A DNA stretch of 64,000 nt from Terriglobia bacterium. GTDB taxonomy: Bacteria > Acidobacteriota > UBA6911. Every line of letters starts with the position of its first letter. Positions within the stretch are counted from its first letter, which is position 1. Of this stretch, positions 2,528-22,735 are shown piece by piece. The stretch is from contig JAIQGI010000037.1 in assembly GCA_020072565.1 (NCBI GenBank), positions 1 to 64,000 of the forward strand, written 5' to 3'. The notes below the pieces were generated by a model. It ran no database searches. It worked only from the letters and a program-made list of their open reading frames with translations, and was not told the origin of the DNA. The position numbers and the translations under genes are program-made.

Positions 2528-5500
2528 CTATCCGACTGCATCCACGGTTGCTCCTCCGCGGCCGTTCTTCAGGTGCCGTCCGGTGACCGAGTTTTCGTTT
2601 TGGATAATGTCAGGCAGCCGGCCGCTGGCCACGACGTACCCGCCTTTCTCACCGCCTTGCGGCCCGAGATCGATGATCCAGTCGGCATTCAGGATGATTT
2701 GCGGGTCGTGCTCGATCACGAGCAGAGTATGACCCTGGTCGGCGAGTTGATGAAACAGTTTCAGGAGATATTCGATATCGCTGAAGTGCAGGCCCGTCGC
2801 GGGTTCGTCAAACAAGTAAAGAATCTTTCCACTCACGGGTTTCGCCAGTTCCGCAGCCAGCATCAGCCGCTGTGCTTCTCCGCCCGACAGCGAGTCGAGA
2901 GGTTGGCCCAATTGCATATAATCCAATCCTACCCGGCTCAGCATCTCGAGCCGGGCAGAAAGAACCTTTTGGTTCCGGAAGAACTCAGCCGCTTCGCCGG
3001 CCGTCATTGCCAGCACGTCGGCGATGTTTCTTGCCTGATACCGGCAGGCGAGCACCTCCTCCCGATATCGTTTTCCTTTGCACTGCTCGCAGGTCACTTC
3101 CACATCCGACAGGAAATCCATGCTGACCCTGATCCTGCCCAAACCCCTGCAAGTTTCGCAACGCCCCTCTTTGTCGGCAAACGAAAAATGCTTCTTGCCC
3201 AGATGGAGACGCCGGGCATCTTCCGTACCGGCATACAAGTCGCGAATGCGGTCGAGGATGCCGGTGAAGGTCGCAGGAGTGCCCGTTGACCCCGAAAAGT
3301 GCGGTTTTTGATGGACGGCGACCATACGATGGAAATGCTCAAAACCCGTGATCGATGTGCATCCGCAGCCTTTGCCTCTTTCCCACGACTGATAAACGAC
3401 GTCGTAGACCAGGCTGGTTTTTCCGCTGCCCGAGATGCCGGTAACGACAACGATCCCTTCAGAAGGAATACTGACCGAAAGATGTTTCAAATTATTGGCG
3501 CAGGCGCCCACGAGGCTCAAGCCTTCTTTCAGGACTCTATTCCTGGTTGAGACGGCATTTGAGTTATCCGACAGATACCTGCCGGTCATCGATGCCGTGC
3601 TGTGCATTATTTCCTGAGGAGTTCCCTCTGCAACGATCCTTCCGCCCTGGCTGCCCGCGCCGGGGCCCAAATCAATGACGTGATCGGCGGAGAGGATCAC
3701 ATCGCGGTCGTGCTCCACCAAGACAACAGTGTTTCCTGCCTGCCGCAGCATATGGAGCATCTTCATTATTAGTCTGCCGACATCAGCTGCATGCAAGCCC
3801 ACGGTGGGTTCATCCAGAACGTAAGTAACGTCTGTGAGACCGCTCCTTAACTGTGCGGCCAGCCTGACGCGTTGAGCCTCGCCCCCTGAAAGGCTGTTGG
3901 AGGTGCGGTCGATACTCAGATAGGACAGACCCAATTCGTCAAGAAATGCCAGGCGCCGGACAGCCTCCATCGCCAACGGAGCCGCAATTTCGGCCCATGG
4001 CGGCTCTCGCAGAACGTCATCGATGGTCCTGAAGAAATCGAGAGCAGCGGAAACCGGGAACGCCGACAATTCCGCAATATTCAACCCGCCAATGGAAAAT
4101 CGTAACGATTCCGGCCTAAGGCGGGTTCCGTGGCAGGACGGACAGAGGTCCTGTTTCATGAGCGGCAGCATGCGCTGCCCGCGGTGGTCGGCATGTTTGC
4201 GCTCATACTCGGCATTGACCAGGCTGACCAGGCCGGGCCATTTGCCCTTGAACTCGTGTTGCCCGGCATGATTTTCCCTCTTATAGCTCCAGGTGACATC
4301 GTAAACTTCGTCATCGCTACCATAGAGGGCAAGGCTCTTCCCGAATTCCGACAGGCCGGCCCAGGGCTTTGAAAAATCGATATGATGCTGTTGCCCGACC
4401 GCTTTGAGCGTGGCGACATATTGTCCGAAGGGGTCACCGTAAAACCTGCCCGTCTTGGTGCCATCCAGAGCGCCGTCGAGAACTGATTTCTCCGGATTGG
4501 TAATGAGCATTTCCGGGTCGCAGACCGTGATGTGGCCCAAACCGTCACACTCGCGACAGGCGCCTGACTGGTGGTTAAATGAGAAGAGCGAGGAGAATCC
4601 GGGTGTTTCGCCAGCATCCGTAGCAGCCACCCTTGAATACAAGAGACGGTACAAGTCGTAGATTCCAGTCATGGTTCCCACGGTCGAACGTGGATTTGCC
4701 GTTATGGACCGCTGATCGACCGCAAGGGTCGGCGTCAACCCGGTTGCTTCATCAAGATTTGCCCTGGCGCATACGCCGATTTGTGACCGGGCGTATGTGG
4801 AGAAACTCTCCATGAAACGGTTCTGCCCCTCGGCGAAAAGGGTGTCGAAAGCAAGCGACGATTTGCCGCTGCCGGACACTCCGGTGATCACGGTAACCTG
4901 ATTGCGGGGAATGGCGACATCGATGTGTCGGAGATTGTTGGTGGTGACACCACTAAGTTGAATGATCCCAGGCACTGTTCCGCTATCCCCTCGAGGAGAG
5001 GCAGCGGTCTCTCTCGCGACCGGTACGCCGGTGATACTCCGGTCTTGCAGATATTCCTTCAACGCCTGTCCCGTATGCGATTCCGCACACCGGACGACAT
5101 CTTCCGGGGTCCCTTGAACCAGCAAACGGCCGCCATCACTGCCGCCTTCGGGGCCCAGATCCACCACCCAATCGGCTGCGGCGATAAGGCCGAGATGATG
5201 TTCGATCACGATGACGGTATTTTTCTGGACGACCAGCGAATTGAGGGCAAGAAGCAAATTGCCGACATCCGCTTGATGAAGTCCAGTAGTGGGTTCATCG
5301 AGGATATAGAGCGTATGCGCCGCCTGCGGCCTGGCCAACTCCGTCGCCAGCTTGATGCGTTGGGCTTCGCCGCCACTCAGCGTGGAAGAACGCTGCCCCA
5401 ACTTCAGATAACCGAGTCCGAGACTCGCCATGGTTTTGAGATAACGCAGAATGCGGGCATGATCAGGGAAGAAATCTCTCGCTTCAGATACCGAGAAGTC

Positions 5501-7498
5501 GAGCACATCGCCGATGTTTTTGCCCTTGCGGGTGATTTCAAGTGTATCGCCATGAAAGCGTCTTCCGTTGCACTCTTCACATAACACCTCAACATTGCCC
5601 ATGAAGTGCATCCCGATCTGCTGATACCCGGCTCCCTGACAGGCTTCGCATCGGCCGCCCGTGGTATTGAATGAAAACTTGCCTTTATCCCAGCCTCGCG
5701 CTCGTGATGCAGGCAGAGCTGCGAAAAGATCGCGCACGTGGTCGAACAAGCCGGTGTAGGTGGCTGGATTGCTTCGCGGTGTGCGGCCGATGGGCGACTG
5801 GTCGATGGTGATTACTTTGGATATGCTTTCCCAGCCTGCGATCGAAAGACATTTGCCGGGTTTCTCGGAAGAAGCATAGAGTTGATTGCGCAAAAAATTT
5901 CCCAGGACACTGTTGACCAATGTTGATTTTCCGGCGCCGGACACGCCGGTCACCACATTCAAGGCTTCCAGGCTGAAGTGGACATCGACATTTTTCAGGT
6001 TGTTTTCTGTTGCGCCGTGGACCGCGAGCATTCCCCCGCCGCTGCGGCGCCTGTCTGGGATCTCCAGCTTTTCAATGCCCTTGAAGAAGGAAAGGGTACG
6101 GCTTCGGCGGAGTTCTCCCGCGGGGATGTGCCCGATTTTTGAAGTGTCGATGTTTTGGAGCACGCGTCCGCCGTTGACGCCGGCAGCAGGGCCTATGTCG
6201 ATGATCCAGTCGGCGCGGCGGATGAATTCTTCTTCATGTTCCACCACAATTACCGAATTGCCGTCGTCGCGCAGCCCTTCCAGTACCTCGATCAGGCGCC
6301 GGGTATCGCGGGGATGCAGCCCCACCGAAGGCTCATCAAAGATGTAGAGGATTCCCGTCAATCCTGTCCCCGCCTGAACCGCGATGCGCAATCGCTGAGA
6401 TTCCCCGACGGATAGGGTCGTCGATTCTCTATCCAGAGAGAGGTAGGCCAAACCCAGGCGCTTGAGCAAATCAATCCGTTTCGAAATCCTGCTGATGATC
6501 GGAGCTGCGACCTGGTCTTCCCGGTCCGAAAGACGGAGATTATCCAGGGTATCCTGAAGCAGGTTCAACTGGAGTGAAGCAAGATCTGCAATATTGAAGC
6601 CGCAAATCTTTACCGATAACGCGTCGGAGTTGAGCCTGGCGCCCCGGCAAGCGGTACAATCGGAAGTGCGGACGAAGCGCAGGATATTCCTGTTGCGTTT
6701 GTGTTTCAGGATGGCGTCCATTACTGGAACGATGCCTTTGTAAAAACCCATTTCCCTGGGTTTGGCTGTAATGCCGCTCCAGCGCATCCGGGATGCCAGC
6801 GTGTGCTTGCCGTAAGGAATTGCGATCCTTTCGCTGCCGTACAGTACGATGTGCCTCTGTTCCGGCGTCAGATCCTTCCAGGGAATATCGGCATTGAATC
6901 CTTCTGCCCGACAAACCTCGTCAAGCACATCCATGGTTACCTGGGAATAAATGATGTACCCGTTCGGAGCCGTAATCACCATGCAGCCCTGGCGCAGGCT
7001 CTTGTTCTTGTCTGCAATTAGCAAGTCCGGATCCAAACGGTCTTCGACGCCCAGACCCTTGCAGGCGGGACAGGCCCCGGCAGGAGAATTAAAGGAAAAG
7101 AGGCTGCGCTCGATCCTGAAATCCCGTGTGTTGTTCTCCGGTTTTCCCAGACGGGCGAACAACAGGCGGAGGTAATCGTAGATTTCGGTGATCGTCCCCA
7201 CGGTGGAGCGTGGATTTGACAGGACAGATTTCTGGTCGACGGCAATGGCAGGAGACAAGCCTTCGACTCTCTCCACATTCGGGCGCTTCATCCTGCCGAG
7301 AAACTGCCGGGCATAAGAGGAGAATGAGCCAAGATACCGGCTTTCGGCTTCACGATAGATTACGTCAAATACCAGCGACGATTTGCCGGACCCGGAAACA
7401 CCGGTTACTACCACCAATTTGTTCTTTGGGAACGAAAGGCTTATCGACCGAAGGTTATTTTCGGACGCGTTGTGTATGAGAACCGAATCGTTGTGCAT
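2528..7498 (-). CDS. Double-length UvrA-like protein with four ABC ATPase cassettes
   Basis: About 1656 residues, close to twice the length of ordinary UvrA (about 940). Two complete UvrA-like halves follow one another. Walker A motifs of the form TGxSGxGK occur four times (coding positions near 7400, 5940, 4880 and 3430), and four signature motifs are present, the first altered (LSVGES) and three canonical (LSGGEAQR). CxxC pairs of the UvrA zinc modules recur through both halves (CPACKG, CTACRG, CEACQG, CEECNG, CRECDG, CPSCHG, CETCRG, CEQCKG). UvrA is the DNA-damage sensor of nucleotide excision repair; extended forms like this are thought to work outside the standard UvrABC route, and I see no clear UvrB-binding insert. 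Start taken at the ATG at 7498, where UvrA homology begins; an upstream in-frame start at 7603 is possible. Confidence 0.9.
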   Translation of the reverse strand: MHNDSVLIHNASENNLRSISLSFPKNKLVVVTGVSGSGKSSLVFDVIYREAESRYLGSFSSYARQFLGRMKRPNVERVEGLSPAIAVDQKSVLSNPRSTVGTITEIYDYLRLLFARLGKPENNTRDFRIERSLFSFNSPAGACPACKGLGVEDRLDPDLLIADKNKSLRQGCMVITAPNGYIIYSQVTMDVLDEVCRAEGFNADIPWKDLTPEQRHIVLYGSERIAIPYGKHTLASRMRWSGITAKPREMGFYKGIVPVMDAILKHKRNRNILRFVRTSDCTACRGARLNSDALSVKICGFNIADLASLQLNLLQDTLDNLRLSDREDQVAAPIISRISKRIDLLKRLGLAYLSLDRESTTLSVGESQRLRIAVQAGTGLTGILYIFDEPSVGLHPRDTRRLIEVLEGLRDDGNSVIVVEHEEEFIRRADWIIDIGPAAGVNGGRVLQNIDTSKIGHIPAGELRRSRTLSFFKGIEKLEIPDRRRSGGGMLAVHGATENNLKNVDVHFSLEALNVVTGVSGAGKSTLVNSVLGNFLRNQLYASSEKPGKCLSIAGWESISKVITIDQSPIGRTPRSNPATYTGLFDHVRDLFAALPASRARGWDKGKFSFNTTGGRCEACQGAGYQQIGMHFMGNVEVLCEECNGRRFHGDTLEITRKGKNIGDVLDFSVSEARDFFPDHARILRYLKTMASLGLGYLKLGQRSSTLSGGEAQRIKLATELARPQAAHTLYILDEPTTGLHQADVGNLLLALNSLVVQKNTVIVIEHHLGLIAAADWVVDLGPEGGSDGGRLLVQGTPEDVVRCAESHTGQALKEYLQDRSITGVPVARETAASPRGDSGTVPGIIQLSGVTTNNLRHIDVAIPRNQVTVITGVSGSGKSSLAFDTLFAEGQNRFMESFSTYARSQIGVCARANLDEATGLTPTLAVDQRSITANPRSTVGTMTGIYDLYRLLYSRVAATDAGETPGFSSLFSFNHQSGACRECDGLGHITVCDPEMLITNPEKSVLDGALDGTKTGRFYGDPFGQYVATLKAVGQQHHIDFSKPWAGLSEFGKSLALYGSDDEVYDVTWSYKRENHAGQHEFKGKWPGLVSLVNAEYERKHADHRGQRMLPLMKQDLCPSCHGTRLRPESLRFSIGGLNIAELSAFPVSAALDFFRTIDDVLREPPWAEIAAPLAMEAVRRLAFLDELGLSYLSIDRTSNSLSGGEAQRVRLAAQLRSGLTDVTYVLDEPTVGLHAADVGRLIMKMLHMLRQAGNTVVLVEHDRDVILSADHVIDLGPGAGSQGGRIVAEGTPQEIMHSTASMTGRYLSDNSNAVSTRNRVLKEGLSLVGACANNLKHLSVSIPSEGIVVVTGISGSGKTSLVYDVVYQSWERGKGCGCTSITGFEHFHRMVAVHQKPHFSGSTGTPATFTGILDRIRDLYAGTEDARRLHLGKKHFSFADKEGRCETCRGLGRIRVSMDFLSDVEVTCEQCKGKRYREEVLACRYQARNIADVLAMTAGEAAEFFRNQKVLSARLEMLSRVGLDYMQLGQPLDSLSGGEAQRLMLAAELAKPVSGKILYLFDEPATGLHFSDIEYLLKLFHQLADQGHTLLVIEHDPQIILNADWIIDLGPQGGEKGGYVVASGRLPDIIQNENSVTGRHLKNGRGGATVDAVG

Positions 7499-7654
7499 TT
7501 CCGCATCAGGGAGTTTCACGTGGCTGTTCAAGCGGGTTCCGGAGCGCACGGAGGGATTCGGCGCGCACTCGCCCGCCGGAGGCGCTGACACCCACCGCAA
7601 CAAACCTGGCGCCGTCGAGCCATCGGGACCTGCCTCGTCGCGTGTAAGTACAGT

Positions 7655-14621: not shown

Positions 14622-14881
14622 ATCCGGAAGAACTCCATCCCCCGGGTCGCGCCATCGCCGGGGTCCCGCTATGGGATCGGTACATGAAGGCATCGACTTT
14701 AGGGAAACCGGGAAGCCCGGTTTTGACATGGCTTGGGCGCATCAACGGTCTCTGGTAGTAGATACCAGCAAAACCTATGCTTGCAGGTGGTAATCGCGTA
14801 CCATCTCCCCGCTTGCCCGTGGAGGGGAGAAAATGTTCAGGAGATCTTGCCTTACATCACGGATCACTAACAGGAGCGGAC

Positions 14882-17635
14882 ATGTACACGCACTTAATTC
14901 TACGGACTTCCGGCACTGCCTCGCTATTTTTCCTCGTACTCTCTTTTTTGCTGTTTCCCGTTTGTCCAGCACAGGCCCGTCTGCAGGCTCCGCGCGGGAG
15001 CATCGCGGGCATGGTCAAAGACACCAGCAACGGGCTGGTGGTTCGTGCGCGAGCTACCCTGCTTAACTCAAGCCAGGCGTCACTGCGCATGACGGAAACC
15101 GACGGTGGTGGGAAGTTCCGCTTTGATGATGTTCCTCCCGGCGCTTACGAAATCCTGGTAGCGAGTCCGGGATTCAACCTGGAGCGGCGGGCTGTTACCG
15201 TGACCGCGGGCAGCACGAGCGAACTGACGGTGATCATGGCAGTACGCCAGATTACCGAAGTCATAACCGTCACTGCCGAGATCGGGACGGCCAGAGACAA
15301 GGACGCGGTTGCCCAGCAGGTCAATGTGATCGGGGATAATGCCCTCACGCAGCGCGCCACCGCGGTGCTGGCACAGGCCGCAGATGAAGAGGTCGGTATT
15401 TCGCTGCAGCGCACGAGCCCGACTGTCGGCGCCGTGCTGGTGCGGGGCCTGACCGAGGTGGGTGTTTACATTGACGGCGTACGATACACAAATTCCACTC
15501 AGCGCGGCGGCATCAACACCTTCTTCAATCTCAATGATCCGACCAGCCTGGATGCCATCGAGGTGTTGCGCGGTCCGAACACGGCGCAGTACGGATCGGA
15601 CTCCCTCGGCGGGACCGTGCAACTCCTCACCCGCCAGCCGCCGCTGGGCTCCGCTCAACGGGACCTGCACGGCGAATTCAACACCTTCTTCAGCAGCGCC
15701 GATTCTTCTTACGGCAGCAATGCGCTCATGACCTATGGCACGAAGCGTTGGGGAGTGCTGACCAATTTCACCGGCCGTCGTATCAACACGCTGCGCCCGG
15801 GCGGCGGCATGGACAGCCATTCTGCGATCACGCGCTTTCTCGGGCTGCCTTCCAGCATCATCGGATCGTCCAGGCTGCCTGATACCGGCTTCACGCAATA
15901 TGGCGGCACCATCAAACTGAACTATATGCCTGCGGCGGACCAGCAGTTGAGTCTGCACTATCAGCGGGGGCAGCAGGACGGCGGCAAACGCTACGACCAG
16001 TTGCTGGGCGGGGATGGCAATCTGATTGCCGATCTGCGCAACCTGATGCTCGATTTTGTCTACGGGCGCTATTCCAAACAGAGGGCAGGATTTTTTGACA
16101 ACCTCACCGCGACCGTTTCATACAACAGCCAGCGTGAAGAACGCGTCAATCAGGGCGGCAACGGCAATCCGCTGGCCGCCGTCATCCACGACAAGGAGCG
16201 CACGAGCTCCCACGGCGCCAGCTTCTATCTTGACAAGCAATCATTCCACCGCAACAGCTTCCTTTGGGGCGGCGACTTTTACCGCGACCGGGTGAACGCG
16301 CCGTCGTATTCCCTCGATCCGGCTACCGGCATCTTCACGCTGGTGCGGCCTCGCGTGCCTAACGGGGCTCGCTATATTCTGGCAGGGCTTTACGTGCAGG
16401 ATTCCTTCGAGTTGATCCGGAACCGGCTGCGACTGAGCGGTGCGTTGCGGTACAACGTCGGTTCGTATCGCTCGAGGGCTGCGAACAGTCCGCTCGTTAA
16501 CGGTCAGCCGCTGTTCCCCGACGACTCATTGCGGGTCGGCGATTTTTCGGGACGCATCGGTGCGGTGGTGACGCTGGCCGGCGGGTTCAACGTCGCCGGC
16601 AATTACAGTCGCGGTTTTCGCGCGCCGAACATCACGAGCCTGGGCTCGACCGGCCTCGTGGGCGTGGGGTATCAGGTAGCCACCAGCGATTTGACGGGAC
16701 TCGGCGCGACCATCGGGACGACTGCGGATGACAGCGCCGTCTCGACCGGCGTGACGGTGGAACCGCTGCGGTCGGAAATCAGCAACAACTTTGACCTCAG
16801 TCTGCGTTTTCGCAACCGGCGGATCGAGACGGATCTGACCGGCTTCCTGATCGACTACGAGAATACGATCGTCCGGCAGACGCTGATCCTGCCCCCGGGT
16901 GCGGTCGGCACACACCTCGGCAGTCAGGTGATCGAGAGTCAGAATGCCAACGGCGCCGTCTTCGTGCCGCTTTCCTCGAGTCCCGTTCTGGTACAGGCGA
17001 ATTTCGGCGGGACCCGATTGTACGGTGTGGAATACACGCTCGACGTTCGATTAACGGATTCGTGGTCATTGGGCGGCAACTACAGCTACGTGCGCGCACG
17101 AGACAAAGAAACCGGTGTGCCGCCGAATCTGGGCGGCGGCGGTTTGCCGCCGCAAATCGGCTTCCTGCAACTGCGCTATCAGCCGGCCGGGAAGCGATAT
17201 TGGATCGAAGCTTACTCGACCCTCGCAGGCAGACAGGATCGGCTGTCCACGCTCGACCTTTCCGACAGGCGCACGGGCGCGGCGCGGTCGCGTTCGAACA
17301 TCCAGAACTTCTTTCGCCGCGGTGCGTGTGTGTATGGCCTGACCACGCCGGGCCCGGACGGACGCTGTGGCTCGAGCGGCGGCATACTGATCGCCACCGC
17401 TGAGACGCTGGCGCAGGTGCAGAACCGCGTGCTCGGCAGCGCAACCTCGGCGCCTCTGTTCCCGGCCATTCCCGGTTATGGTCTGCTCAATCTGCGTGGC
17501 GGATTCCGCCTCAGTGAGAGCCATGAAATCACGGTTGATTTTGAAAACATCGGGGACAAAAGCTATCGCGCGCCCGGTTGGGGCGTTGACGGCCCTGGAC
17601 GCAGCGTGACGGCGCACTATCGCTTCCGTTTCTGA
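14882..17635 (+). CDS. TonB-dependent outer-membrane receptor
   Basis: About 917 residues. A Sec signal peptide (about 1-32) is followed by a carboxypeptidase-regulatory-like beta domain (about 35-115), then a plug domain (about 125-245, with VLVRGLTEVGVYIDGV and IEVLRGPNTAQYGSDSLGG) and a long beta-barrel ending in an aromatic C-terminal strand (Tyr-Arg-Phe-Arg-Phe). These receptors take up iron complexes, vitamins or glycans using TonB energy. The barrel carries no obvious substrate clue, but the neighbourhood contains many carbohydrate genes. An AGGAGCGG ribosome site just before 14882 decides the start; the frame is open from 14777. It is 82 bases upstream of the dikinase-like gene on the same strand, so the two may be co-transcribed. 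Confidence 0.92.
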   Translation: MYTHLILRTSGTASLFFLVLSFLLFPVCPAQARLQAPRGSIAGMVKDTSNGLVVRARATLLNSSQASLRMTETDGGGKFRFDDVPPGAYEILVASPGFNLERRAVTVTAGSTSELTVIMAVRQITEVITVTAEIGTARDKDAVAQQVNVIGDNALTQRATAVLAQAADEEVGISLQRTSPTVGAVLVRGLTEVGVYIDGVRYTNSTQRGGINTFFNLNDPTSLDAIEVLRGPNTAQYGSDSLGGTVQLLTRQPPLGSAQRDLHGEFNTFFSSADSSYGSNALMTYGTKRWGVLTNFTGRRINTLRPGGGMDSHSAITRFLGLPSSIIGSSRLPDTGFTQYGGTIKLNYMPAADQQLSLHYQRGQQDGGKRYDQLLGGDGNLIADLRNLMLDFVYGRYSKQRAGFFDNLTATVSYNSQREERVNQGGNGNPLAAVIHDKERTSSHGASFYLDKQSFHRNSFLWGGDFYRDRVNAPSYSLDPATGIFTLVRPRVPNGARYILAGLYVQDSFELIRNRLRLSGALRYNVGSYRSRAANSPLVNGQPLFPDDSLRVGDFSGRIGAVVTLAGGFNVAGNYSRGFRAPNITSLGSTGLVGVGYQVATSDLTGLGATIGTTADDSAVSTGVTVEPLRSEISNNFDLSLRFRNRRIETDLTGFLIDYENTIVRQTLILPPGAVGTHLGSQVIESQNANGAVFVPLSSSPVLVQANFGGTRLYGVEYTLDVRLTDSWSLGGNYSYVRARDKETGVPPNLGGGGLPPQIGFLQLRYQPAGKRYWIEAYSTLAGRQDRLSTLDLSDRRTGAARSRSNIQNFFRRGACVYGLTTPGPDGRCGSSGGILIATAETLAQVQNRVLGSATSAPLFPAIPGYGLLNLRGGFRLSESHEITVDFENIGDKSYRAPGWGVDGPGRSVTAHYRFRF

Positions 17636-17717
17636 CCTCCTCGCCTTTTGACTTTCCAGCGCGTTTTGCGGATGATAGGGATTCACACGCGAAACAGGAG
17701 GGCCAAGGAGCGAACGG

Positions 17718-20414
17718 ATGAGCGATCCGAACGCAGCATCCGCCAGCCGCGTCGACGCGGTCCGCAGGATCACCCAAGTCCGGTCGGAGTACATGAGCGC
17801 CCGGCTGATCGCGGAGAGCCTCGATCATCGCCTGGCCGGGACGAAATTCGAACGACTGCCCGGCTATCTGCCGGCGGAGATCGACTACGCGATTGACCAT
17901 GCGCCCCTTTCCACCGTCGCGGTCCGCGACTACGATGTCCGCTTCCTTGACCGTGTCGCCCCGGCGAAAGCGATCGCCCACCTGGACTTGATTCTTCGCG
18001 CTCGCGGCGGTGATCCCAAGGCCCGGCAGGAGCTCGAAGGGAAAGCTTCCGAAACCTATAAAAAGATTGCCGCCAGGTTTACGCAGACGGCCCTCGGCGA
18101 GAGTGAGCACGTCGTTCCCTACACCACGTCCGGGATTTGGCCCGAGGCCCGGATCAGCAACAAGGGGGCCATCCTCCTCGACTTGTCCCGCCGCGGCTTC
18201 GCCACGGCGGATTTCATTCTTCTTGCTGCGAGCGTCTATACGCTCCCGGAAGCCCGGCGGAGGGAGTGTGCCCGGGACGCAATCCGAAATCTCGAAATCC
18301 TCAGCGGCCGCAAGCTCGAGGATCCTGACAATCCCCTGCTCATCGCCATGCGGTCGGCCATGCCGAAATACATCCCCGGTTTTATGCCGACCTACCTGAA
18401 CGTCGGCCTGACTCCCGGCATGCTCCGTGGCCTGCCGCGCCGGTACGGGGAGAACGCCGTGGCGCAGATCCGCCTCGACAACCGCAAAACCATCCTCGAA
18501 GCTCTCGACCCGGAGGCCTTCCGATCCATTGAAAAGGAGATCCGGCCCCATCTGACCCGGCAGGAGAACAATGCTCTGGCGGTCCGGATCGAAGCCCTCA
18601 TCGCCGAGCGCCGGCCCGAGCTCCTGGCCGGTGCCTTTGACCAGATCCTGTTTTTCTTGTGCAAAGCCTATCAATACTATGAAAGCCATCTCGACGCGCT
18701 CCGCAATTTTGTGGTCTGTGGAACACAGTATCCTGCCGTCATTTTCCAGAGAATGGTCTGCAGTGTCATCGACCGGTGGTCGTACGCCGGGGTCCTTTAC
18801 AGCCGCCACCCGCGCCAGGGGACCGGCATCTTTCTCCAGTTCGGCCGGACGGTGTTCGGCGAGGAACTGATGACCGGCCGCCTTCAACCGGAGGAACGGC
18901 ATTTCAAGACACGTGAGGAGGCCAAGAAGGATTTCCCGGCGGTTTATCATTTCTGGAACAGGCTCTCCCAGCTTGAGGACATCTTTCGTGCCCCGGTCAT
19001 GGTCGAGTTCACGGGGGTCCACGGCACGTTCACTACTCTTCAGGTGAATCCTGCAGAGATGTCCGGCGTGGGCATGCTGACGGCTGTCATGGATATGCAC
19101 CGGGCCGGGCGGATCTCCGCCGACCGGGTGCGCGAGCTGATCAAGCCCTATCACGTCCGGCAGATCGAGTCCGACGCCATCGATCCGAAGTCACTTCACA
19201 GCCTCACCCCGTTCTGTCAAGGCATTTCGGTCCTCCCGAGATCTGCGGTCACGGGCCGGATCTGGTTTTCCGCCGGCCGGGCCCGGCAATCCCGCGAGGA
19301 GCGGCCGGGAGAAAACGTTATCCTGACCCAGGAACGTTTCACCCCGGTCGACGCCATCGAGATGCAGAGCGTCGGTGGGATCTGCAGCCTCAGCCCGGCA
19401 GCGATCCACGTCGTGACCGCCGCCCAGAACCTCGGGATCCCGGCCCTGCTGAACCTCGAGGGAAGCGGCGTACGGTTCGACTCCGAGGGTACCCGCCTGA
19501 TCAACCGCGACGGCCTGGCCCTCCGGGAAGGGGAATGGGTCTCGATTTCGAGCCGGCAGCGAACCCTGTACGTCGGAAAAGCTACCTTTGCCCCGGCCAG
19601 ACTGCTCCGTTTCATGGCCGGGGAAAAAGTCGATCTTACTGCTTTGGAGCGGGTGTTGTTCGAAGGCTGGGCGTCGTATTACCGGGAATACCGGATGATC
19701 CTCGAAAGCGTGGATGCACCCGAGTTCAAGAGCCTGCAGGACTTGGGCCACTCCATCCGGTACGGCCGGCTTCAACAGGAGCCGGACAAGGCCGGCTTTG
19801 TGAACCGCTGTTTCGACATCAACCGGCACCGGCTTGTCCGGCGGATGCTCGATGTCACACTGGGGACTCATCTCGTCAACCTGACGGCCTTCGATCTGCT
19901 CTCGCCCGATCGCCAGGTCCGGCTCCTTAAGGACGCCCTGGCAATCTGCGCCGGGAAGGGGATCTCGGGCTACCAGGCCGGCGCGTTCCTGCTCGGCAGC
20001 CTGGTCAAGCCCGGAGCGGGCGTCGCTTTCTGGGAAAGCTTCGAGCCGCACGAGATCGGCCGGTTGATCAACGAATGGGTGCTCCATCAGAAGTATCTGA
20101 ATGTCATCGCGGATCTCGGCGAAAAGAAGGTCAACCGGGCCAAAGACTACATACTCTCGCGCGGGCTGGGCCGGCTCCGGGTTCACAAAGGTCTGGTCAG
20201 GGAGTTCATGCCCCTGAAGCTGAGCCGCGTGGATCTCGGCGCAGTTCTGCATGCCCTCCCTGCCATGGTCGACCTCCAGACGCGGGAGGTCCTGGATCTC
20301 CTGCTCAGGCCGTATGCGGAGTTTTATGATTTCTCGGAGGCCGTCAGCCTTTCCGCGCTCCGGCGGATCTGCGAGAAGGAATGCCGGCCTATGCCCGGCC
20401 CGCGCGATGTTTGA
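17718..20414 (+). CDS. PPDK/GWD-like dikinase: PEP/pyruvate-binding and phosphohistidine domains only
   Basis: An 898-residue cytoplasmic protein. Residues about 225-480 resemble the ATP-grasp domain of pyruvate phosphate dikinase (PTYLNVGLTPGML, then PVMVEFTGVHGTFTTLQVNP and the VMDMHRAGRISADRVRELI helix). Residues about 500-590 resemble the swivelling phosphohistidine domain, with a GWD-like core AIHVVTAAQNLGIPALLN in which His564 is the likely phosphorylated residue. The C-terminal PEP/pyruvate TIM barrel is missing; instead about 300 residues of helical, unrecognised sequence follow. The N-terminal 220 residues are also unassigned. A good ribosome site (AAGGAGCG) precedes the ATG. The acceptor is unknown: a glucan, a protein or a small molecule are all possible. 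Confidence 0.7.
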   Translation: MSDPNAASASRVDAVRRITQVRSEYMSARLIAESLDHRLAGTKFERLPGYLPAEIDYAIDHAPLSTVAVRDYDVRFLDRVAPAKAIAHLDLILRARGGDPKARQELEGKASETYKKIAARFTQTALGESEHVVPYTTSGIWPEARISNKGAILLDLSRRGFATADFILLAASVYTLPEARRRECARDAIRNLEILSGRKLEDPDNPLLIAMRSAMPKYIPGFMPTYLNVGLTPGMLRGLPRRYGENAVAQIRLDNRKTILEALDPEAFRSIEKEIRPHLTRQENNALAVRIEALIAERRPELLAGAFDQILFFLCKAYQYYESHLDALRNFVVCGTQYPAVIFQRMVCSVIDRWSYAGVLYSRHPRQGTGIFLQFGRTVFGEELMTGRLQPEERHFKTREEAKKDFPAVYHFWNRLSQLEDIFRAPVMVEFTGVHGTFTTLQVNPAEMSGVGMLTAVMDMHRAGRISADRVRELIKPYHVRQIESDAIDPKSLHSLTPFCQGISVLPRSAVTGRIWFSAGRARQSREERPGENVILTQERFTPVDAIEMQSVGGICSLSPAAIHVVTAAQNLGIPALLNLEGSGVRFDSEGTRLINRDGLALREGEWVSISSRQRTLYVGKATFAPARLLRFMAGEKVDLTALERVLFEGWASYYREYRMILESVDAPEFKSLQDLGHSIRYGRLQQEPDKAGFVNRCFDINRHRLVRRMLDVTLGTHLVNLTAFDLLSPDRQVRLLKDALAICAGKGISGYQAGAFLLGSLVKPGAGVAFWESFEPHEIGRLINEWVLHQKYLNVIADLGEKKVNRAKDYILSRGLGRLRVHKGLVREFMPLKLSRVDLGAVLHALPAMVDLQTREVLDLLLRPYAEFYDFSEAVSLSALRRICEKECRPMPGPRDV

Positions 20415-20614
20415 TTGAACCGAGGGCACTGCTATCGCGGATTGTACTTCATGATGCGGATCCGTTATCGGGACGGGTCTCCATTGAGTTCCCGGCCATT
20501 TTTATAAATCCGACCGCCCGGACGAATCAGCAGACCTCGCACCCCAACCTATGCTATTCTCCGCCCAGCTCTAGAAAGCGTTCCCCCGTTATTTTATTTC
20601 GAGGTGTTGATATC

Positions 20615-22735
20615 ATGAAAAATTCGCGTGTCATTATGGCTGCCACCCTCGTCCTGTCGCTTGCTGCGACGCTGGCAGCGCAGGCTCCGTCGTCGGGAGG
20701 GGCCGCCCGGCTCCGAGCGCTGTTCTTCCTGCGCGACTTCGAGACGGGCGTCCTCGAGGGCGAGAAGCTGGTGGCCGCATCCCCCAACGCATCCGACCTG
20801 TACGCGTGGTACTTGCTCAACCTGGTGCGCGGCGGTGACGAGAAGCGCGCCGTCTCGCTTGCCGAGGAGATGACAAAGAAGAAGCCGCGGGATCCCTGGG
20901 CCTGGTTTGCGCTCGCGGGCGCCCTCAATTACCAGAGCGAGCGTCCCGCCGACGCCGTGACGGCGGGCGAGACGGCGCTGAAGTTGCTCCCGAACAATCC
21001 CGATATCATCTGGATTCACGCGCAAACGCTTGCGAACGACGAGAAGCGACGGGACGAGGCGATCGCATTCGTGGACGCTCAGCGCGGCCGCCTGAAAAAC
21101 CCCGCGGAGATCCTCGTGACGAAGGGCTATGCGCTGTACCGGAGTGCATCGGGTCCGCCGCGGGACGAAGCCCGGACGAAGCTGGCGTTTGCCGCCTTTG
21201 AAGAGGCGCGCCAGATCGACCCGAAGAATCTGAACGCCTTGTATCTGCCCGGCGCGTATTTGAACGGGCTTCGCCGGAGCGACGAGGCCTATCCGCTGCT
21301 CAAGAGGGCGCTGGCAATCGCGCCCGATTCGACGGTTGTACACCAGGAGTACTGGAATGCCGTGACAGGCAGCCATGATTTCGGGGCCGACAGGAAACGC
21401 CAGGAGATCGAGGCGGACGTGAACGCGTTCCTGAACGGCCGCGGTGACCGTCCCGGCGCTTTGTCGGCGGTGGCTTCCGTGTCGCGAGACATGAAGTGGA
21501 CGGAGAAACAGCGGGATTGCGAGGACAAGATCCTCAAAATGTTTCCCGACAGCTTGGAAGCCGAGTGGATCTTCGCCGCCCGGTGGAGAGAGTTGGGACG
21601 CTCGCCGGAGTCGGCTCGCTCGCCACAGTATCGTCAAATCCTGCGCGAATTCATCGACCGGCCGCGGCACTATATCGACGGACTGCTCGGCGAAGCGTAT
21701 CAGAATTACTTCTATGTCCTCGCGACCGACAGCTCGGTGTCAGGCGACGAACTGTACCGCGTGGCAGAAGGTGCATTGAAGTACGAGACCAACAACCCAC
21801 ACATTACATGGGTGTACACGCCCACCGCGCTTGCCGATCGCAAGGTGCACCTTGCCGACGCTGAACGCATCGCACGCGATGGCATCGAGGTGCTGAAAAA
21901 GAAGATCGATAGCCAGCGATCGGTTTACAAATCCCAAGGGGAATACGATCGGGCCGTCGGCTGGGCGACCGCCAAGGGCTACGACGCGCTCGGCTGGGTG
22001 CTTTTGGCCGAGGGCCGTGTGGACGAGGCGGAGAAGGCTCTCCTGCAGTCCTTCGAACTGGACCACGCAAGCCGGCAGAACCTCGACCATCTCGGCCGCT
22101 TTTACCTGGCGCGCAATAATGAAAGCAAGGCGGAAGAGTTCTTCGTCAAGGGATTGAGCGTGCAGGCGCCCGGCGCCAATCCCTGCGAGACAGCGCTCAG
22201 ATCGCTGTACGAGAAGCGTCGCGGCACTCTCGATGGCATCGATGCCTATTTGGCGAAGCTGAGGGAAGTCGACCGTGACAAACGCAAGGAACGCATCCTG
22301 ACCGAACGAATCGCCAGTCCCGAAACGCTCACAACCTTCAACCTCAAGACACTCGATGGGAAACGCGTCTCGCTCGACAGCCTCAAGGGCAAGATCGTTG
22401 TCATCAACTTCTGGGGCATCTGGTGCGGCTGGTGCGTCCAGGAACTGCCCGAATATCAGAAGCTTTACGAGAAGTACGCGAGCGACCCCGACGTGGCGAT
22501 CCTGACGATCGACAACGATTCGAACCCCGACGACGTGCCGCCGTGGATGGCACAAAAGAAGTACGCGTTCCCGGTCCTCATCGACGACGGGTACGTCAAT
22601 AAGGTTGGGCTCCACACTTTCCCGACCACCTGGTTCGTGGATGCGCAAGGACGCAAGGTTTTCGAAAAAGTCGGTTGGAGCGAGAAGCTGCTCGAGGAGT
22701 TCAGCTGGCGCATCGAAGCCATCCGGACAAAGTAG
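20615..22735 (+). CDS. Secreted TPR protein with C-terminal TlpA-type thioredoxin domain
   Basis: About 706 residues. It has a signal peptide (MKNSRVIMAATLVLSLAATL, Ala-Gln-Ala cleavage site), a long helical tetratricopeptide-repeat region (about 40-560), and a TlpA/ResA-like thioredoxin fold at the C-terminus (about 575-706) with the redox motif WCGWC (residues 603-607) and the cis-proline loop FPTTWF near 670. It should act in the periplasm, where the TPR part would bind proteins or peptidoglycan-linked partners and the thioredoxin part reduce disulfides. The start is fixed by a GAGGTG site eight bases before 20615; the frame is open from 20381, which overlaps the dikinase-like gene. The substrate is not indicated. 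Confidence 0.82.
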   Translation: MKNSRVIMAATLVLSLAATLAAQAPSSGGAARLRALFFLRDFETGVLEGEKLVAASPNASDLYAWYLLNLVRGGDEKRAVSLAEEMTKKKPRDPWAWFALAGALNYQSERPADAVTAGETALKLLPNNPDIIWIHAQTLANDEKRRDEAIAFVDAQRGRLKNPAEILVTKGYALYRSASGPPRDEARTKLAFAAFEEARQIDPKNLNALYLPGAYLNGLRRSDEAYPLLKRALAIAPDSTVVHQEYWNAVTGSHDFGADRKRQEIEADVNAFLNGRGDRPGALSAVASVSRDMKWTEKQRDCEDKILKMFPDSLEAEWIFAARWRELGRSPESARSPQYRQILREFIDRPRHYIDGLLGEAYQNYFYVLATDSSVSGDELYRVAEGALKYETNNPHITWVYTPTALADRKVHLADAERIARDGIEVLKKKIDSQRSVYKSQGEYDRAVGWATAKGYDALGWVLLAEGRVDEAEKALLQSFELDHASRQNLDHLGRFYLARNNESKAEEFFVKGLSVQAPGANPCETALRSLYEKRRGTLDGIDAYLAKLREVDRDKRKERILTERIASPETLTTFNLKTLDGKRVSLDSLKGKIVVINFWGIWCGWCVQELPEYQKLYEKYASDPDVAILTIDNDSNPDDVPPWMAQKKYAFPVLIDDGYVNKVGLHTFPTTWFVDAQGRKVFEKVGWSEKLLEEFSWRIEAIRTK

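Follow-up and report, generated by a model that had tools for sequence, protein, structure and literature searches.

A barrel-less dikinase-like gene and its neighbors

The window, the 64,000-nucleotide stretch of a Terriglobia bacterium contig analyzed here, carries on its forward strand an open reading frame for a dikinase-like protein of 898 aa (the window dikinase). This gene, its parts and the genes beside it are:

14777-17635, + strand: TonB receptor, upstream of the dikinase gene
17718..20414, + strand: barrel-less dikinase-like protein, whole gene, 898 aa (open reading frame, TIGR01828 match, orthologs, dN << dS)
17718..18137, + strand: orphan N-terminal module, residues 1-140 (invariant R22, P48-G49-Y50 and D73)
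18138..19202, + strand: PPDK-type ATP-grasp region, residues ~141-495 (PPDK alignment, conserved residues, predicted fold)
19203..19586, + strand: phosphohistidine swivel domain, residues ~496-623 (PF00391, E 0.024; Foldseek match to 2fm4)
19407..19409, + strand: His564 codon, presumed phosphoryl acceptor (invariant in 13 alignment rows)
19587..20411, + strand: orphan helical domain at the C-terminus (residues 624-898), which replaces the PEP/pyruvate TIM barrel
20381-22735, + strand: TPR-thioredoxin gene, whose listed start overlaps the dikinase gene

GC content by codon position in the dikinase frame is 0.65/0.44/0.79. Three orthologs from Candidatus Aminicenantes assemblies (L022-L024) align over nearly the full length at 70-71% identity, and dS against them is ~5 to 8 times dN, indicating purifying selection. 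The high third-position GC and the excess of dS over dN thus identify 17718-20414 on the + strand as a real, constrained gene. Two antisense ORFs (17529-19154 and 19191-20429) were rejected as genes, as they hold no domains and the codon statistics favor the + strand frame.

An NCBIfam profile search matched residues 186-627 to PPDK (TIGR01828, E 5e-27) at 94 bits, short of the curated cut-off of 843 bits for that family. PPDK sequences in the PDB matched residues 187-629 (E 1e-20). The Pfam scan of the protein gave a sub-threshold match to the PEP-utilizer mobile domain alone (PF00391, residues 532-585, E 0.024) and none to the PEP-binding barrel family. The TIGR01828 match, the invariant His564 and the lack of a barrel family bear out a sequence-only reading of this DNA, which had described the gene as encoding a dikinase-like protein with a phosphohistidine domain and no PEP barrel.

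The TonB receptor and the TPR-thioredoxin gene had also been put forward as context for the dikinase. Both are present on the same strand, but the pair is missing at all of the ortholog loci, and it was therefore given no functional weight. At L023 and L024 an unrelated TonB-type gene lies upstream of the dikinase gene in the opposite orientation. A likelier start for the TPR-thioredoxin gene is the in-frame ATG near 20615, where its signal peptide begins. Elsewhere in the window, the ORF at 2528-7603 on the - strand encodes 1691 aa, ~2 times the usual UvrA length, with domains of the ABC and UvrA DNA-binding types.

The ATP-grasp region and the swivel domain

The segment ISNKGAILLDLSRRG (residues 145-159) aligns with the PPDK GGKGANLAEMT strand, which makes Lys149 the equivalent of PPDK Lys22. 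Furthermore, the TIGR01828 alignment of a distant ortholog (L034) starts at model position 13. Both place the start of the ATP-grasp region at ~141 and leave an orphan N-terminus of ~140 aa, shorter than the 220 unassigned residues of the sequence-only reading. This module (residues 1-140) had no relative in the PDB.

The remaining PPDK equivalents are R212 for Arg92, E430 for Glu323, Q442 for Gln335 and H564 for His455, and the PPDK PG turn corresponds to P220-G221. K149, R212, E430, Q442 and H564 do not vary among 12 full-length members, some as diverged as 38%. The proposed PPDK-like nucleotide-binding region thus stands, with its main ATP-grasp residues in place, but the equivalents of two PPDK residues are replaced. 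Asp321 is M428 in the window dikinase and M or T across the family, and Arg337 is N444 and N or D across the family. Both residues are kept in the PPDK reference and in 35 of 35 viral PPDK-type sequences.

His564 aligns with the catalytic His455 of PPDK. The loop that precedes this residue in the dikinase superfamily has the motif T/SxxGGxxxH (PMC12167813). This motif is missing before His564 across the dikinase family: the window dikinase has SLSPAAI in place of the PPDK TxxGGxTS loop, and the family pattern is SL(S/T)(P/S)xA(I/L/V), for example SLSPAAIH or SLTSAA(I/L/V)H, with the GG lost in every member. The PPDK Arg at His+6 is replaced by Gln, or in one member by His. All 35 of the viral PPDK-type sequences, many of them likewise barrel-less, keep both the GG loop and the His+6 Arg.

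The alignment behind a model of the whole protein (pLDDT 78, pTM 0.68) combined the window dikinase with its three orthologs and with 33 viral relatives of PPDK cut off at the swivel; an earlier model from 4 close sequences (pLDDT 43) was discarded. PPDKs ranked first in a Foldseek search with the whole model, and the best match of the swivel was 2fm4, a PPDK carrier domain on its own (rmsd 2.2, TMt 0.83). The first two domains are therefore predicted to take the PPDK ATP-grasp and carrier folds, an agreement that is supportive and, since the model alignment contained PPDK relatives, not fully independent. Around His564 this model, of reasonable confidence, has the fold of the PPDK carrier. 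Of the two results that the sequence-only reading had named as refuting it, missing ATP-grasp residues and another fold around His564, neither was obtained. The core around His564 had been called GWD-like; this label was dropped, as no GWD family scores, the domain order is that of PPDK and the best swivel match is 2fm4.

A C-terminal domain in place of the barrel

The 275 residues that follow the swivel (624-898) are predicted to be all-helical, at lower confidence than the rest of the model. With no barrel family detected, this agrees with the earlier proposal that unassigned residues replace the TIM barrel. Neither a PDB profile search nor Pfam scans of family members found a relative of this domain, and Foldseek with the whole model returned nothing specific to it. 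We also compared the C- and the N-terminal modules with the helical stretch of the enolase-dikinase fusion described below; hhalign gave probabilities of 0.3% and 0.1%, respectively, and a relationship was rejected.

The domain is conserved about as strongly as the ATP-grasp part. Its invariant residues are R628, R631, E636, N696, D700, H718, R732, Y752, W772, E779, E786, W787, K792, Y793 and E802. So many invariant polar and aromatic residues, at ATP-grasp-level conservation, are what would be expected of a working site.

Distribution of the family

The C-terminal domain is carried by 7 of 396 sampled genomes of the phylum. In a tree built from the ATP-grasp region and the swivel, 12 family members lie beyond one long, fully supported branch and fall into two subclades, one of five Aminicenantes-type sequences that include the window dikinase and one of seven enolase-paired sequences. 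One contig of genome G336 (L032) is the reverse complement of the Candidatus Aminicenantes contig L024, which links the sampled phylum to Candidatus Aminicenantes.

No relative belonging to the family was found on viral contigs. Many viral contigs (IMG/VR, L081-L127) code for barrel-less PPDK relatives of 590-730 aa (ATP-grasp, swivel and a short tail), which have fully canonical catalytic residues. On plasmids the best matches were annotated PPDKs at ~24% identity, none of which covers 80% of the query.

Pairing with a permuted enolase

Of 299 genomes belonging to one class of the phylum, 7 carry the dikinase C-terminal domain, and an M50-like domain is found in exactly those 7; the other 292 carry neither. 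In all seven the gene for the dikinase and that for a protein combining the M50-like domain with a permuted enolase are adjacent and convergent, and an eighth pair lies in another family (L037). The tail-to-tail gap at the eight loci is 3 to 500 bases. Genes flanking the pairs mostly differ, some being common to two close relatives. It seems that the two genes are retained or transferred together, and as they may move as one cassette the 7 co-occurrences are not 7 independent events. An integrase fragment lies beside one pair, and genes read from their sequences as HSP20 small heat-shock-like and CBS-like lie near two pairs; the coordinates of these flanking genes are L034:9569-10132, L034:11912-12409 and L037:7341-10126.

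In the partner protein (~800 aa), an M50-like membrane domain comes first, Enolase_C (E 5e-57) second and Enolase_N third. Enolase_C before Enolase_N is the reverse of the normal order, that is, a circular permutation. The M50-like domain matches PF02163 below the curated cut-off (E 2e-5), and its HExxH and LAVxAxGP motifs and a later Asp are invariant in 14 sequences. The enolase part scored 245 bits against TIGR01060, under the 300-bit cut-off. When the permutation was undone, all of the enolase catalytic residues were found to be kept in five stand-alone and three fused sequences; we take these residues to be E167, E208, D245, E289, D316, K341, H369-R370-S371 and K392 (E. coli numbering). 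A search of the open-access literature found no description of the permuted enolase, of its M50-like fusion or of its association with a dikinase.

The pairing does not extend to every carrier. At the window and its four nearest ortholog loci the enolase gene is not adjacent to the dikinase gene, and in two carriers (G336 and G380) no M50-permuted-enolase gene was found. In another family the M50-permuted-enolase gene adjoins an ordinary enolase gene, not a dikinase gene (L053:3522-6017 with L053:6050-7423; L054:3001-5496).

One nearly complete genome in 8 contigs (G274) has the permuted enolase alone, with neither an ordinary enolase nor an iPGM-type phosphoglycerate mutase. The ordinary enolase and iPGM genes are neighbors in its sister genomes, so that both may be missing through a single deletion or gap in the assembly. 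Because iPGM is missing too, we did not accept the lack of an ordinary enolase in this genome as establishing a glycolytic role for the permuted enolase.

An enolase-dikinase fusion in the genome of the window

The genome of the window has no adjacent pair of this kind. It does encode a single 2064-aa ORF (G000:C16, L049:4801-10992) in which the M50-permuted-enolase is fused to a barrel-less dikinase. The layout is M50-like domain, permuted enolase, a helical part of ~600 aa, PPDK-type ATP-grasp and a swivel with TAKGGSTSH, without a barrel. Two related genomes have the same fusion (L050:205-6678 and L052:2858-8974; the ORFs are 2040-2160 aa), and one has it split into two adjacent genes (G015; L051:2744-9162), with the enolase gene directly before that for a barrel-less dikinase. 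In the tree the fusion dikinase forms a lineage separate from the window family, so the permuted enolase has come to be linked with two distinct kinds of barrel-less dikinase. The fusion shares the barrel-less PPDK-type ATP-grasp and swivel with the window dikinase, but differs in its near-canonical residues (R337 and the TAKGGSTSH loop) and its different helical part. A canonical full PPDK (G000:C14, 1360 bits) and ordinary enolases are also encoded in this genome.

Proposed function and alternatives

We favor, at a probability of about 0.5, a cytosolic barrel-less dikinase with its acceptor on the C-terminal domain and an activity coupled to enolase. ATP would bind the ATP-grasp part (residues 141-495) and His564 of the swivel would become phosphorylated from it. 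The swivel would then carry the phosphate to an acceptor on the C-terminal domain (624-898) in place of pyruvate. Enolase function would be linked, physically or metabolically, to the product formed or to the nucleotide state. Glycerate is a candidate acceptor: its phosphorylation would give 2-phosphoglycerate, which enolase could convert to PEP, but we regard this choice as a long shot. The window dikinase may have the same role; as its gene is not beside an enolase gene, its tie to enolase is drawn from homology and from the fusion encoded at another place in this genome. The sequence-only reading had suggested that the phosphate is perhaps passed to some unknown acceptor. This is consistent with all of the findings, but that reading had missed the family-wide loss of the Asp321, Arg337 and Gly-loop equivalents. 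We tentatively entertain a further idea, namely that the M50-like permuted enolase and the dikinase make up a new two-protein or fused enzyme. In it, an active permuted enolase on a membrane-embedded, metalloprotease-type M50-like domain would be coupled to a dikinase that charges a new acceptor (glycerate, for example, giving 2-phosphoglycerate that the enolase would convert to PEP at the membrane), or whose nucleotide state would let glycolytic and energy status gate intramembrane proteolysis.

With Asp321 and Arg337 replaced and the GG loop lost, turnover could itself be lost. The main rival to a dikinase with a new acceptor is therefore a pseudo-dikinase that binds ATP or AMP without the dikinase reaction and serves as an energy sensor or scaffold controlling the M50-enolase. 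These losses are family-wide, the His+6 Arg is Gln in all but one row, and the partner keeps the M50-protease motifs HExxH and LAVxAxGP and the downstream Asp. M50 proteases with nucleotide-sensing parts exist, as in SpoIVFB with its CBS domain. However, the invariance of the Lys22, Arg92, Glu323, Gln335 and His455 equivalents goes beyond what pure binding would need, and in a sensor H564 could drift. Nor need the loss of one metal-site acid be fatal: in RPH, Lys22 is essential, yet activity survives replacement of the Mg-ligand Glu297 (PMC4844700), so that the residue pattern does not decide dikinase activity. On balance we consider the sensor unlikely.

A VadK-like regulator directed at a protein, in which the H564 phosphate is passed to the permuted or ordinary enolase or the dikinase binds it, appears improbable. 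VadK (Mycobacterium tuberculosis Rv1127c, ~50 kDa), a barrel-less PPDK relative, autophosphorylates its His and pulls down methylcitrate-cycle enzymes (PMC13400623), and the steady gene pairing with one enzyme would fit a dedicated protein partner. Yet VadK ends after the swivel, whereas every member of the window family has the 275-aa C-terminal domain. That this domain is kept even in G336 and G380, where no enolase gene was found, argues for a built-in acceptor site. That the protein is a usual PPDK or PEP synthase whose barrel has diverged is scarcely credible: PPDK is the best named family, but the match is 94 bits against 843, no barrel family was detected, the C-terminus is predicted to be all-helical and a canonical full PPDK is encoded elsewhere in the genome.

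An active protein would open a new route, or a new point of control, at the PEP node; an inactive one would be a natural example of a pseudo-dikinase sensor. In the searchable literature this is the first tie of a dikinase to an enolase, and the enolase concerned is permuted and joined to a membrane domain resembling a metalloprotease.

Comparison with known dikinases

Glucan water dikinase transfers phosphate from ATP by way of a His to an acceptor other than pyruvate, has its swivel before the ATP-grasp and carries glucan-binding modules. Membership of the window dikinase in this group was rejected, as its domain order is the opposite and no glucan water dikinase family was detected in a Pfam scan with E up to 1.

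The window dikinase resembles PPDK (TIGR01828; 1KBL/1DIK) in having the ATP-grasp followed by the swivel, in the equivalents of K22, R92, E323, Q335 and H455 and in the predicted carrier fold. Unlike PPDK, it has no barrel, D321, R337, the GG loop and nearly always the post-His Arg are replaced, and it has an extra 140 aa at the N-terminus and 275 aa at the C-terminus.

Barrel-less PPDK relatives and dikinases with other acceptors are already known, VadK being an example of the former and RPH and HpeHI of the latter. RPH combines an ATP-grasp and a His swivel with a domain for a non-pyruvate acceptor (PMC4844700), and the HpeHI phenolic dikinases share this make-up (PMC12167813). The structural similarity of RPH and HpeHI to the window dikinase model is weak and lies mainly in the ATP-grasp. 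The order in RPH is ATP-grasp, acceptor domain, swivel, whereas in the window dikinase it is ATP-grasp, swivel, orphan domain. VadK, a short PPDK of the PRK05878 type, is closer in being a barrel-less ATP-grasp and His domain protein. Its profile NF004531 matches the window dikinase with E 2e-21, at 76 bits and so far short of the cut-off of 456. VadK has nothing after the swivel, whereas the window dikinase adds 275 conserved residues. Dikinases are modular, in that the swivel can serve differing acceptor domains, and to this the present family adds a domain without a known relative and an altered His loop.
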